DNA from: Lachnospiraceae bacterium
GTDB taxonomy: Bacteria > Bacillota > Clostridia > Lachnospirales > Lachnospiraceae
Assembly (NCBI GenBank): GCA_015057615.1
Contig: SVEA01000094.1
Span: forward strand, 1-36,031
DNA length: 36,031 nucleotides
Direction of reading: 5' to 3'
Below, in pieces: positions 13,816-18,155 of the stretch. Both the position numbers and the translations under genes were made by a program. The notes beneath the pieces are model-generated. The model did not search any database. It had not been told where the DNA came from and worked only from the letters and a program-made list of their open reading frames with translations. Every line of letters starts with the position of its first letter. Position 1 is the first letter of the stretch.

Positions 13816-14974
13816 AACGTATTTCAAATTATTAAAGTCTCAGATGGTATCCATTATCATTTATGGGGTTACCTTTCTTATCATTACAATTATTATATCG
13901 ATTGCTATCCTGAGGGATAAGGGAGAAGATTTCAGCATAAAAGAAGTTCCTGTGTATGTCATTAATCAGGATGAGCCGAACGAGTTTATTAACGGATTTC
14001 TCGATTATCTGGATCAGTATGTTAATTATGTTGCTCTTGAAGACAGTGATGAAGCAAGAAAAGATGCTTTATTCTATCGAAAGGTTCTTTATATCTTAAC
14101 CATCCCGGAGGGATTTACAGAAAGCTTCCTTGCAGGGGAAAAGACAGAGCTTATAAAAGAGGCCGTTCCGGGTGATGCAAGTATCGTTTCCGTAGATAGT
14201 GCCATTAACAATTATTTGAATAAGGCAAAGATCTATCTAAACCATGCTCCGGATATAAAGCCGGAGGAATTACACGCTAATATAAAAGAGAACTTAAAAG
14301 AGAATACCGAGGTTGCTTTTGATATTACCTATGGGGATGAGGATTACAATTCGAATTTATTTAACCGGAACTATTATAACTATCTTGCCTATATTCTTTT
14401 GGTCTGCTTAATTAAGGGAGTCAGCTCCGTTATGGTATCCTTCCATAATCTTGACATTCAAAGGAGACAGAATGCATCACCCTTATCGTTAGAGAGCACG
14501 AATCTGCAATTGATCCTTGCCAATTTTGTATTTGTAATCGTCTATCTGGGCATATTTATTGTGGCGGGATATGTCTGCAATCCGTACCGGATGATCAACC
14601 GAAATCTGCTGCTATTTATACTAAATTCCATTGTATTTACCATAATGGCACTTAGCATCAGCTACCTGATCGGTATTACGGTGAAAAGTAAAAATGCAGT
14701 GTCCGCCTTGTCCACGGTGCTGTCTTTGAGCTTATCGTTTCTGTGCGGAGTATTTGTAGATCAGCAATATTTAGGAAAAGCAGTTATCAAGGCGGCAAGC
14801 TTTACACCGGTCTATTGGTATGTACGGGCGAATAATGCGATCGATGCTATCGTTAAATTCAGTCCAAAGAATTTAACCGAGATCATTATATGTATGGGAA
14901 TTGAAATTGGATTTGCAATTGCTCTTTTTGCCATAGCTTTGGTTGTTAGCAAACGTAAAAGGCAGCAGGCGTAA
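13802..14974 (+). CDS. ABC-2 exporter permease, second subunit
   Basis: This 390-residue permease has the same plan as its neighbour: one N-terminal TM helix (YGVTFLIITIIISIAIL), an extracytoplasmic domain from about 45 to 200 (KEVPVYVINQDEPN onward), then about five TM helices ending in a basic tail KRKRQQA. AAGGAGG precedes its ATG inside the end of the first permease gene. The two permeases probably form a heterodimer with the ATPase at 11.7 kb. The TM helices contain LSLSLSFLCGVFVDQQYLG, typical of ABC-2 membrane proteins. Confidence 0.88.
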   Translation: MQVFRTYFKLLKSQMVSIIIYGVTFLIITIIISIAILRDKGEDFSIKEVPVYVINQDEPNEFINGFLDYLDQYVNYVALEDSDEARKDALFYRKVLYILTIPEGFTESFLAGEKTELIKEAVPGDASIVSVDSAINNYLNKAKIYLNHAPDIKPEELHANIKENLKENTEVAFDITYGDEDYNSNLFNRNYYNYLAYILLVCLIKGVSSVMVSFHNLDIQRRQNASPLSLESTNLQLILANFVFVIVYLGIFIVAGYVCNPYRMINRNLLLFILNSIVFTIMALSISYLIGITVKSKNAVSALSTVLSLSLSFLCGVFVDQQYLGKAVIKAASFTPVYWYVRANNAIDAIVKFSPKNLTEIIICMGIEIGFAIALFAIALVVSKRKRQQA

Positions 14975-15102
14975 ATGAAACTTCGCAGTTAATCAGAGTG
15001 TTGATGCTTGATAAAATCAGCATTCGGTTGCAGCACATGGATAAGTTTATGAAGGCTGATTTCATCAAGCATGGTTATGGTTGTAAACTGCGAAGTTTCA
15101 TT
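14974..15102 (+). repeat. 129 bp nested inverted repeat (element D)
   Basis: Outer arms AATGAAACTTCGCAGTTAA (14974-14992) and its near-perfect complement (15084-15102, one mismatch) enclose inner arms ATGCTTGATAAAATCAGC (15004-15021) and GCTGATTTCATCAAGCAT (15055-15072, 17 of 18 paired). The middle 33 bases form the loop. It begins at the stop codon of the exporter operon. There is no T-run, so it is not a standard terminator. Confidence 0.8.
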
Positions 15103-15116
15103 GAAGGATGGGAGTA

Positions 15117-15147
15117 TCAAAAGCCGATTTGTTAGGAAAGCTTTTGA
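15117..15147 (+). repeat. Short derivative of element C
   Basis: TCAAAAGC (15117-15124) and GCTTTTGA (15140-15147) flank CGATTTGTTAGGAAA. This looks like the two outer ends of element C (CAAAAGCCGATT and GATTTGTTAAGAAGGCTTTTG) joined with the interior lost. Confidence 0.55.
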
Positions 15148-15186
15148 CTCTTAAATCATATGAATTCCCAGTAGTTTCTTGAAAAT

Positions 15187-15200
15187 AGAACAAATGTTTG
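15187..15200 (+). promoter_or_regulatory. LexA (SOS) box 1, upstream of the radical SAM promoter
   Basis: AGAACAAATGTTTG fits the clostridial SOS box GAAC-N4-GTTT and the Bacillus form CGAAC-RNRY-GTTYG, except at the first base. It lies just upstream of the -35 element. Confidence 0.72.
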
Positions 15201-15210
15201 AAATTAATGA

Positions 15211-15239
15211 TTGACTTCCGATGCTGGTTTTGCTATACT
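15211..15239 (+). promoter_or_regulatory. Sigma-A promoter of the radical SAM gene
   Basis: TTGACT (15211-15216), exactly 17 bases, then TATACT (15234-15239): a near-consensus promoter, among the best in the window. Transcription would start at about 15246, the first base of the second SOS box. An in-frame ATG at 15221 lies inside this promoter and so cannot be the start codon. Confidence 0.85.
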
Positions 15240-15245
15240 ACTTAC

Positions 15246-15259
15246 AGAACAGATGTTTG
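15246..15259 (+). promoter_or_regulatory. LexA (SOS) box 2, at the transcription start
   Basis: AGAACAGATGTTTG, a second GAAC-N4-GTTT box, covers the predicted start of transcription. The two box starts are 59 bases apart and the boxes bracket the promoter, a layout that would allow tight repression. Confidence 0.75.
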
Positions 15260-15277
15260 CATATGGAGAGGGAAGCT

Positions 15278-16702
15278 ATGGTAATTCAGGAGAATATGTC
15301 GATTCAACGTAAACTTGAAATCTTATCCGATGCTGCGAAGTATGATGTTGCCTGTACTTCCAGCGGTGTCGACCGAAAAGGCAACGGAACCGGAATGGGC
15401 AACAGTTCGGCTTGTGGTATCTGTCATACCTTTTCCGCAGACGGAAGATGCATCTCTCTCCTTAAGATATTATTTACCAATGAGTGTATCTTTGACTGCA
15501 AGTATTGCATTAATCGATCATCGAATGATGTGATACGAGCCTCCTTTACCCCGGAGGAAGTTTGTGAGCTTACGATGGAATTTTACCGTAGAAATTATAT
15601 TGAAGGGCTTTTTTTAAGCTCCGGTATCTTAATCAGTCCCAATCATACAATGGAACAGTTACTTCAGACTTTGGTTCTTCTTCGGGAGGTGCATCATTTT
15701 AACGGCTATATTCACTGTAAGGCAATTCCTGGTTCTGATCCTGCTCTTATTGAGATGCTTGGCTGGTATGCGGATCGGATGAGCGTGAATCTGGAGCTTC
15801 CTACCGCGGAAAGCCTGAAGAATCTGGCGCCTCACAAGAACCGTAAGAATATTCTGAAACCGATCCGGCAGATTCAGCTTAGAAGAGAGAATGAACAGGA
15901 GCGTCTCGGACTGCCGGATATGCAGTTATTAAGAAAGCAGATCTCGAATATTTCTGCGGATCATGAATTTGGAGAAATTATAGCAAAGCAGGCCGATCTT
16001 ACCGCTTATCAGCCTAGACCGAAGCCTGGCCGGCATTTTGTGCCTGCCGGACAGAGTACACAGATGATCATTGGTGCGACGAAGGAAACGGATTATCAGA
16101 TTATGTCGGTAACGGAGACATTATATAGGAACTTCAATTTGAAAAGGGTATTTTACTCCGCTTTTATGAATGTGAATCAGGACAGTAGACTGCCGGCGAT
16201 CACCGACGGACCTCCATTACTAAGGGAGCACCGCCTGTATCAGGCAGATTGGCTGCTTCGTTTTTATGGTTTTCAGACGAAGGAGCTGTTAAGTGAAAGA
16301 AATCCGAATTTTAATGTTTTATTGGATCCAAAATGTGACTGGGCGCTTCGGCATCTGGAGATATTTCCGGTAGAGATCAACAAAGCAGACTATTATACCT
16401 TGCTACGGGTACCTGGAATTGGTACGAATTCCGTGAAGCGAATTATGATGGCAAGAAAGAGTGCGGTGCTTGATTTTAAGGACTTAAAACGAATGGGAAT
16501 TGTTCTGAAACGGGCAGTCTATTTTATCACCTGTAACGGAAAGATGATGTATCCGATCAAAATTAATGAGGATTTTATTACCAGACAGCTTTTGGCAGAT
16601 AAGGGAAAGCTTCCATTTGGTATGACGCAGGATATGACCTATCGGCAATTATCTCTATTTGATGATTTTAGTGTATCACCGCAGGCTCTTGCAAAATATT
16701 GA
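15278..16702 (+). CDS. Radical SAM protein, putative DNA modification/repair (TIGR03916-like)
   Basis: This radical SAM protein of 474 residues has its [4Fe-4S] motif CIFDCKYC (C70, C74, C77; CX3CX2C). Four further cysteines come before it (C26, C46, C49, C58, in VACTSSG and ACGICHTFSADGRC). The C-terminus has a helix-hairpin-helix DNA-binding motif, LLRVPGIGTNSVKRIMMAR. This is the layout of the family described as rSAM linked to uracil-DNA-glycosylase-like genes. Starts at 15278 (GGAGAGGGA upstream) or 15296 (AGGAG three bases upstream) are possible. The DUF4130 partner gene follows. Two SOS boxes bracket its promoter. The substrate is unknown; action on a damaged or modified base is inferred. 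Confidence 0.87.
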   Translation: MVIQENMSIQRKLEILSDAAKYDVACTSSGVDRKGNGTGMGNSSACGICHTFSADGRCISLLKILFTNECIFDCKYCINRSSNDVIRASFTPEEVCELTMEFYRRNYIEGLFLSSGILISPNHTMEQLLQTLVLLREVHHFNGYIHCKAIPGSDPALIEMLGWYADRMSVNLELPTAESLKNLAPHKNRKNILKPIRQIQLRRENEQERLGLPDMQLLRKQISNISADHEFGEIIAKQADLTAYQPRPKPGRHFVPAGQSTQMIIGATKETDYQIMSVTETLYRNFNLKRVFYSAFMNVNQDSRLPAITDGPPLLREHRLYQADWLLRFYGFQTKELLSERNPNFNVLLDPKCDWALRHLEIFPVEINKADYYTLLRVPGIGTNSVKRIMMARKSAVLDFKDLKRMGIVLKRAVYFITCNGKMMYPIKINEDFITRQLLADKGKLPFGMTQDMTYRQLSLFDDFSVSPQALAKY

Positions 16703-16721
16703 ACGAATAAAATTGATTGGT

Positions 16722-16775
16722 GGGTCAAAAGCCAGGTTTATAAAATTAACTTCTTGTCAGGAAGGCTTTTGACCC
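16722..16775 (+). repeat. 12-bp-arm inverted repeat with element C ends
   Basis: GGGTCAAAAGCC (16722-16733) and GGCTTTTGACCC (16764-16775) pair perfectly around a 30-base loop that contains GTCAGGAA, similar to the GTTAGGAA inside the short derivative at 15.1 kb. It sits 20 bases after the radical SAM stop. The lack of a T-run argues against simple termination, but it could attenuate read-through into the DUF4130 gene. Confidence 0.6.
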
Positions 16776-16875
16776 TCGAATAAAATTTGGTTGTGCAAAT
16801 ACAAACTCTGCAAGCAAGAGGGATTGTGATTATGGTAGTAATTTTTAAATAGTACGGAAAGGTTCTGAGGATGAT

Positions 16876-17691
16876 ATGAAACCGCAGCGGATTTATGTAT
16901 GTGACAATAGTATCGATGGAATATTTACAGCTATTTACCAGGCTTGGAGTTCACGATATGGTCATGCTAATATTAAAATTGAAGAAAAATATGATCACGG
17001 AGCCTGTTCGAATTTTGAATTGTTTTCTGAATATATTTCGGTGGATACGGACTATGCGGTTGCTGTGAAGGTGGCTGAATCAATTCAGACAAAGATATCG
17101 GAAGAGGCATATCAGATGGTGTATCATGTTGCGCTTTCAAATTATCAGGGGAAAGCAGACCTGGTATACCGCTTCCTTATCCTTGGTTTTGCCATAGGAC
17201 CGAAAGTAGTACAGCATCTAAGTAATGAAGTGGTCGGTCAGATGTTTGCTCTTAATAAGAAAGTCGGTAATGAAGTCCATCATTTGCTTGGCTTCCTTCG
17301 ATTTACCGAGCAGGAGAACCGGATCCTAACCTCTGTGATTCATCCTCAGAACAATGTACTTTCTCTTGTAGTTCCGCATTTTGCCGACCGTTTGCCAGAG
17401 GAACGTTTTATTATCGTTGACGGCAATCGGAATATGGCGGCACTTCATGCGCCAGGAAAGCAATGGATTCTTATGGAATCACAGGAAATTACAGAGAGTA
17501 TTGGGCAAGAGATTTCTGGCAAAGAAGCAGGTTATCAGGAATTATGGAAAGCATTTTTTAACAGTATTGCAATTATGGAACGAACAAATTATAAGCTTCA
17601 AAGAAATAACCTTCCGTTACGATTCCGGAAAGATATGACGGAATTTACATCTGCAAATGCACGAAGCAGCCATCTTATTGATGGAAAATAA
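16876..17691 (+). CDS. DUF4130 / TIGR03915-like DNA metabolism protein
   Basis: This 271-residue protein has features of the family found beside, and in other bacteria fused to, a uracil-DNA-glycosylase-like domain. It starts with YVCDNSIDGIFTAIYQAW. The middle has ILGFAIGPKVVQHLSNEVV, then VHHLLGFLRFTEQEN, VVPHFADRLPEERFIIVDGNR and a C-terminal LWKAFFNSIAIMERTN with basic residues. There is no glycosylase domain here, so it is the stand-alone form. GAGG five bases before the ATG at 16876 supports the start. It lies 173 bases after the radical SAM gene on the same strand and is probably co-expressed with it. The biochemical function is unproven. Confidence 0.82.
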   Translation: MKPQRIYVCDNSIDGIFTAIYQAWSSRYGHANIKIEEKYDHGACSNFELFSEYISVDTDYAVAVKVAESIQTKISEEAYQMVYHVALSNYQGKADLVYRFLILGFAIGPKVVQHLSNEVVGQMFALNKKVGNEVHHLLGFLRFTEQENRILTSVIHPQNNVLSLVVPHFADRLPEERFIIVDGNRNMAALHAPGKQWILMESQEITESIGQEISGKEAGYQELWKAFFNSIAIMERTNYKLQRNNLPLRFRKDMTEFTSANARSSHLIDGK

Positions 17692-17828
17692 AGCTTTTTA
17701 GCAGTCATGCCAATTCTAATTATTTTCAAAAAGGGAAAAGATTCAACATTCGTATGATTATGTATAAATCATTATAACCGTGGGATACTAACGAGGTAAA
17801 TTGATATTATTATATAGGAGGAGTATCC

Positions 17829-18155
17829 ATGAAAAAGAAACTATGTATTTTGTTAGCGTTATGCTGTATGGCGTTATTTTCTTTTAATGCATGCCGTACG
17901 AATGATAACTTAAATAATGGTGCGACAGAGAAAAATGATGGTATCAAGGATGGAGTAACACCAACCCCCGGAACAACAGCGCCCGGAACGACAGCGCCCG
18001 GGACGACAACAACGCCTGGAACGACAACAACGCCCGGTACGAACGGAACAACAAACGGAGCGGATGGAACCAACGGAACCATCAATGGTGCTACACCGAC
18101 ACCTAGAACAACTACAGGAGGAACCACAGGCGGAACGACTGGTGGAACTCGCTAA
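17829..18155 (+). CDS. Small Thr/Gly/Pro-rich lipoprotein
   Basis: This 108-residue protein has a clear signal peptide (KKKLCILLALCCMALFSFNAC). The Cys after FNA could be lipidated, although the lipobox is not canonical. The rest is low complexity: TPGTTAPGTTAPGTTTTPG, then NGTTNGADGTNGT and a tail of GGTTGGT repeats. It has no folded domain that I can see. It may be a cell-wall spacer or a spore/wall-associated peptide. AGGAGG lies nine bases before the ATG. It ends in a bidirectional terminator shared with the Fur gene. Confidence 0.75.
   Translation: MKKKLCILLALCCMALFSFNACRTNDNLNNGATEKNDGIKDGVTPTPGTTAPGTTAPGTTTTPGTTTTPGTNGTTNGADGTNGTINGATPTPRTTTGGTTGGTTGGTR

Follow-up and report, generated by a model that had tools for sequence, protein, structure and literature searches.

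The radical SAM/DUF4130 locus and its promoter

The window analysed here is a stretch of 36,031 nucleotides of contig SVEA01000094.1, from the genome of a Lachnospiraceae bacterium (assembly GCA_015057615.1). It carries a gene for a radical SAM protein of family TIGR03916, followed on the same strand by a gene for a DUF4130 protein of family TIGR03915, with a promoter and two putative LexA boxes upstream of the former (Table 1). As the preliminary description had it, both 14-mers fit GAAC-N4-GTTT and they bracket a TTGACT-17-TATACT promoter, box 1 standing before the -35 hexamer and box 2 at the expected start site; both are on the plus strand, with exactly the sequences given there. Transcription is expected to begin about 7 nt past the -10 hexamer, where box 2 has its left edge. 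The window contains many promoter-like matches as such (10 compared with 8.1 expected); the position of the -35 hexamer relative to box 1 recurs in relatives. The list of open reading frames places the start of the radical SAM gene at 15221, within the promoter. Orthologues start about 207 nt ahead of the CX3CX2C motif, which makes 15278 the most likely start codon; box 2 thus covers the expected transcription start, with its right end 19 nt short of the start codon. No strict box was found before the DUF4130 gene in the scan of the window.

Table 1. Features of the radical SAM/DUF4130 locus, in window coordinates
Feature	Position	Strand	Remarks
Predicted LexA box 1, AGAACAAATGTTTG	15187..15200	+	Exact match; 17.0 bits on the recA-trained matrix
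-35 hexamer TTGACT	15211..15216	+	Starts 10 nt past the end of box 1
-10 hexamer TATACT, preceded by TG	15234..15239	+	17-nt spacer from the -35 hexamer
Predicted LexA box 2, AGAACAGATGTTTG	15246..15259	+	Over the expected transcription start; 16.7 bits on the recA-trained matrix
Likely ribosome-binding site, GGAGAGGGA	15265..15273	+	Read from the sequence
Radical SAM protein, TIGR03916 (rSAM_link_UDG), 474 aa	15278..16702	+	CX3CX2C at C70/C74/C77; HhH-like C-terminal part
Palindromic repeat between the radical SAM and DUF4130 genes	16725..16772	.	Repeat-pattern search; also a candidate transcript hairpin
DUF4130 protein, TIGR03915, 271 aa	16876..17691	+	248.5 bits (cut-off 112.25); no UDG match

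LexA-type sites in the window and in the source genome

Five matches to GAAC-N4-GTTT were found in the window against 0.80 expected, the latter in keeping with the roughly one chance match per window that the preliminary description had estimated, and only 1 of 100 shuffles reached five. The three matches away from the promoter lie at 1446, 8667 (minus strand) and 32790, the last two within reading frames. For scoring, we used a matrix built from 35 recA boxes taken from 30 genomes, one of which is the source genome, with no radical SAM promoters in the training set. On this scale, the two promoter boxes are the strongest LexA-type sites in the window, and the sole other site reaching at least 10 bits scores 12.2.

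The source genome (4.07 Mb in 215 contigs) contains one LexA match. Its recA promoter has a box of 18.0 bits and its Y-family polymerase gene is preceded by one of 16.8 bits, while five LexA-like sites of 9.2 to 16.1 bits are gathered within about 120 nt (L001 2179-2295) between lexA and a divergent LysM-domain gene, which we take to be possibly a YneA-type division inhibitor.

Conservation of the boxes in relatives

Of 299 genomes of the family, which represent 298 genera, 169 have a TIGR03916 match above the cut-off, and the radical SAM protein nearly always has DUF4130 adjoining. From these 169 genomes we took 131 loci, namely the window, the 30 best-scoring, 60 from the ranks just below and 40 at the bottom of the listed ranking, chosen by protein score and not by promoter; one genome (G227) was skipped for its short upstream sequence. 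To estimate gene starts in the relatives, we counted 207 nt back from the CX3CX2C motif. The preliminary description had proposed looking for paired boxes before homologous genes, a comparison from which its reading emerged intact. In this set, 116 of the 131 genomes had a strict GAAC-N4-GTTY box in the 300 nt preceding the estimated start and 15 had none there; 52 had at least two boxes, the bracketing arrangement being one of two common two-box designs.

The first pass covered 124 loci, seven of the 131 having been missed by the motif search; later strict and matrix counts use all 131. In this pass, strict boxes were found in 110 of 124 radical SAM promoters and 28 of 30 recA promoters; the controls gave 0 of 30 (gyrB promoters), 1 of 124 (initial 300 nt of the gene) and 4 of 124 (reversed half-sites). 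Among all 256 perfect dyads with an N4 centre, GAAC was the most frequent in the radical SAM promoters (67 of 124), the runner-up reaching 14. The recA-trained matrix exceeded the 99% level of a shuffled null in 129 of 131 radical SAM promoters, in 1 of 30 gyrB promoters and in none of 131 gene bodies, and it exceeded the 99.9% level in 109 of 131. Both failures, L175 and L212, do carry boxes (20.1 and 17.8 bits), which the scored stretch narrowly missed because of their positions at -307 and -299. When the promoters were aligned on their best box (n=129), identity in the flanks was 29%, near background, and kinship alone therefore does not account for the boxes; the 70% identity inside the box is partly built in, as the alignment was anchored on the best-scoring box.

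A second collection of 80 named loci, which includes Desulfosporosinus and Paenibacillus and partly overlaps the family set (e.g. L181 and L222), gave a strict box in 61 and a site passing the matrix null in 68. Eight of the 12 loci below the null are in genomes that have LexA: six of these carry a one-mismatch box upstream, and L294 and L299 lack even a one-mismatch box upstream of the gene. The other four, from Gemmiger (twice), Faecalibacterium and Ruthenibacterium (L286, L289, L296 and L298), keep the radical SAM gene in genomes with no LexA over the cut-off, and no box was found at the gene (1.5 to 4.2 bits). One more genome with no match to LexA, the metagenome-assembled L267, nevertheless has a 13.0-bit site at its radical SAM gene; its LexA may lie on missing sequence. 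For the boxless relatives, lexA was read in 8 of 24 loci, and no differing box was derived for those genomes. Two radical SAM loci were detected in viral contigs.

Two operator designs

Promoters with two boxes fall mostly into two spacing groups, 24–31 nt and 55–64 nt, with 9 of 52 family spacings outside both. The window's promoter is of the wide design. Among 42 promoters spaced by 54–65 nt, box 1 starts 20–25 nt ahead of the start of the -35 hexamer in 40. The narrow design has box 1 within the spacer, and there the -35 hexamer starts 5–11 nt ahead of box 1 in 32 of 32 promoters; these counts pool the family and named sets, which share some genomes and are not independent. Box 2 follows the -10 hexamer in both designs. 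The two positions of box 1 are about 31 nt apart, close to three helical turns, so that the box would face the same side of the helix in both designs.

Among the 113 boxed family promoters with a promoter call, 22 are wide, 22 narrow and 38 have a box at the start site only; the rest have it in the spacer only (10), upstream only (4) or are otherwise arranged (17). A perfect TTGACA/TATAAT pair occurs in 10 of 22 narrow promoters and in 0 of 22 wide ones. At recA, boxes lie at the start site in 18 of 28 promoters and in the spacer plus the start site in 7 of 28, the upstream position being used in none of the 28. The two designs also form a natural promoter set for relating LexA position to promoter strength. 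Examples of a LexA box within the spacer of a perfect TTGACA-17-TATAAT promoter are found at L033, L037, L039, L059 and L132.

The radical SAM and DUF4130 proteins

The radical SAM protein matches the TIGR03916 profile over its full length (model positions 1-415 of 415) with 666 bits against a cut-off of 343.5. We take COG4277 to be the COG of this radical SAM/HhH protein. Both the CX3CX2C cluster motif and a predicted radical SAM fold are present, the predicted fold being closest to lipoyl synthase and HydE. Three further invariant cysteines, C26, C49 and C58, lie in the N-terminal region and could hold a second Fe-S cluster. The C-terminal part gave 20.7 bits with Pfam HHH_3, under the 27-bit cut-off, and a profile of 47 sequences matched a ComEA-related HhH chain at E 0.00053. 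A search of solved structures by sequence matched just short HhH and radical SAM stretches. Spore photoproduct lyase (SPL) was absent from the sequence-profile and fold matches listed for the protein, an absence that excludes nothing. No reaction for a TIGR03916 protein was found in the literature searched.

In the DUF4130 family, the invariant residues are in the C-terminal half. No UDG family was found among the matches listed for 68 DUF4130 proteins (the best 25 of 36 families in one scan and all 5 in another). The alignment behind these scans excluded frames longer than 300 aa, and nine such frames, scanned separately, matched no UDG family either. The two UDG-family genes of the source genome are on contigs other than the window's. 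Foldseek placed DUF4130 near DHH/DHHA1 folds (RecJ, Cdc45, NrnA and PAP phosphatase) at a TM-score of 0.40 at best, which is low; the DHH catalytic motif was found in 0 of 68 sequences, no profile-profile similarity to DHH/DHHA1 phosphoesterases was detected, and a sequence search of solved structures returned no match. A RecJ/Cdc45-like (DHH/DHHA1) fold for DUF4130 is a tentative prediction. Neither protein matched PADLOC at E 0.01, and a role in anti-phage defence was rejected.

LexA control and alternative readings

We read the two boxes as LexA operators that place the radical SAM gene under SOS control, with a probability of roughly 90%. This control, which the preliminary description had proposed, is supported computationally: the source genome encodes LexA, boxes of this kind occur at its recA and lexA promoters, and orthologues are likewise preceded by boxes. 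In undamaged cells, LexA dimers would sit just upstream of the -35 hexamer and over the start site, blocking RNA polymerase. By the standard SOS mechanism, DNA damage would lead RecA filaments to trigger LexA self-cleavage, and the radical SAM gene would then be expressed, with DUF4130 most likely following by read-through. The radical SAM protein probably binds DNA via its HhH-like part. Partnered by DUF4130, it may then use radical chemistry to act on a base that is damaged or altered, although the reaction is speculative.

For the radical SAM gene, DNA-damage control is supported by the boxes and their conservation; for DUF4130 it is deduced from the operon layout. In 207 of 213 loci, a DUF4130 gene comes next after the radical SAM gene, at a median gap of about 8 nt and with three quarters of the gaps below 46 nt. 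In the window the gap is 173 nt, one of 11 gaps above 150 nt among the 207 loci, and it holds a palindrome of the kind that the source genome has in 10 places; co-induction of DUF4130 in the window is therefore likely but not assured. LexA might control the radical SAM gene alone in the window and DUF4130 be expressed separately, as the lack of a strict box before DUF4130 would allow. Since the repeat is not scored as a terminator and the median gap is so short, we consider separate expression rather unlikely, and a shared SOS response of both genes remains the preferred reading.

A second alternative concerns what the pair does. It might make a regular DNA modification, with SOS control serving some other end, such as DNA protection during recombination. 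The NCBI name of the TIGR03916 family, 'putative DNA modification/repair', accommodates this, as do the predicted fold nearest lipoyl synthase and HydE and the three extra invariant cysteines with their possible second Fe-S cluster. However, control of the radical SAM gene follows that of recA, and a relative in other phyla is linked to uracil-DNA glycosylase in the available part of PMC8565304, so that a modification system appears doubtful, about as much so as separate expression of DUF4130. The fullest version of the repair reading holds that in this family the pair belongs to the core of the SOS response, being under LexA control about as regularly as recA is, and that it is a new kind of repair machine. 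In this machine, a radical SAM enzyme resembling lipoyl synthase, with C26, C49 and C58 binding a second Fe-S cluster, would work with a catalytically dead, RecJ/Cdc45-like (DHH/DHHA1-fold) DNA-handling DUF4130, without the UDG of other phyla. Taken with all its parts, this version is tentative, and we think it more likely wrong than right.

The operators might also belong to another repressor with the same half-sites, such as a phage-type S24 repressor or a LexA paralogue, and relatives do encode proteins whose match to the LexA model is confined to its C-terminal part. Yet the source genome has this motif before recA and around lexA, 28 of 30 relatives have it before recA, and of the 5 genomes without LexA over the cut-off, 4 also lack the box, which makes this reading improbable. 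Chance matches in AT-rich intergenic DNA, of which about 0.8 are expected per window and which the other three matches resemble, can be set aside as an explanation for the promoter pair, as the preliminary description had done, since two such sites within 75 nt of each other arose in 1 of 400 first-order Markov windows, and a matrix not trained on the radical SAM gene finds the site in 129 of 131 relatives whose flanks share an identity of 0.29. Strong and conserved predicted SOS control indicates when the radical SAM protein is needed, namely during DNA damage; its reaction thereby becomes testable, because induced cells can be compared with a simple mutant.

Relation to known SOS systems

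LexA control of the pair is not a new principle, since it was predicted earlier in Clostridium acetobutylicum: the available text of PMC3828012 (2013) gives CAC3343-CAC3344 as a predicted LexA target. That prediction was for one species, and CAC3343 is assigned to TIGR03916 here by its name; in this work, by comparison, the predicted control proves conserved across a sample of 131 genomes of the family, and the layout of the operators is worked out. The Gram-positive core SOS regulon in PMC7739468 counts 'a radical SAM protein', its family not given in the part available, for species that are mainly Bacilli and Actinobacteria. In Bacteroidetes, an operon of UDG and COG4277 (COG1573-COG4277) is a predicted SOS target according to the accessible portion of PMC8565304, which also cites SOS control of COG1573-COG4277 for Verrucomicrobia and Alphaproteobacteria. 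Like the pair studied here, that operon is a two-gene putative DNA-repair unit under LexA; its partner is a UDG and its LexA motifs differ, whereas here the partner is DUF4130, with no UDG match. The same portion of PMC8565304 describes SOS control, in several species, of another radical SAM enzyme of DNA repair, SplB (spore photoproduct lyase). The window's protein resembles SplB in combining radical SAM DNA repair with LexA control (both putative here), but belongs to TIGR03916 and has the three extra invariant N-terminal cysteines and the HhH-like part. The available text of PMC3765255 describes DUF4130 as an enzyme with a predicted role in mutagenesis and a link to SplB-like proteins and UDGs.

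The 12-mer of box 1, GAACAAATGTTT, is identical to the operator core of C. difficile lexA and recA in the accessible text of PMC4234289, where both operators are listed for surface plasmon resonance. These operators belong to other genes, and 'radical SAM' is absent from the main text available. The first two thirds of the gut SOS meta-regulon paper (PMC3998124) do not name the radical SAM/DUF4130 pair. In literature that included few subscription papers, some of it in partial text, we found no report of LexA control of the pair in Lachnospiraceae and no statement of a DHH fold for DUF4130. What this work adds is the family-wide conservation, the operator designs, the tentative DUF4130 fold and the three extra cysteines in a lipoyl-synthase-like core.

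Repeats and further sites

A palindromic repeat, TCAAAAGC...GCTTTTGA, lies on both sides of the radical SAM gene, at 15117-15147 and 16725-16772. Its pattern occurs at 10 places in the source genome and at none with the reversed control; it is a small dispersed palindromic element. The copy between the two genes may form a hairpin in the transcript, and no terminator was called there. Between an ABC permease gene and the SOS promoter, nested inverted repeats occupy 14974-15102: perfect arms of 17 nt, separated by 95 nt, enclose a second pair of arms of 22 nt. Rfam gave no match at gathering scores over 14900-18000, these repeats included.

Elsewhere in the source genome, a 14.7-bit LexA-like box precedes an SMC/AAA_23 frame (SbcC- or RecN-like) by about 35–50 nt (L339, contig C136). 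LexA-like boxes of 14.8 and 16.3 bits also lie near genes for an ABC-3C-type protein (CTD10) and for a restriction endonuclease of the TdeIII type (L335 on C78 and L336 on C86). In the source genome, to which this observation is confined, the latter two boxes hint at SOS-linked defence genes.
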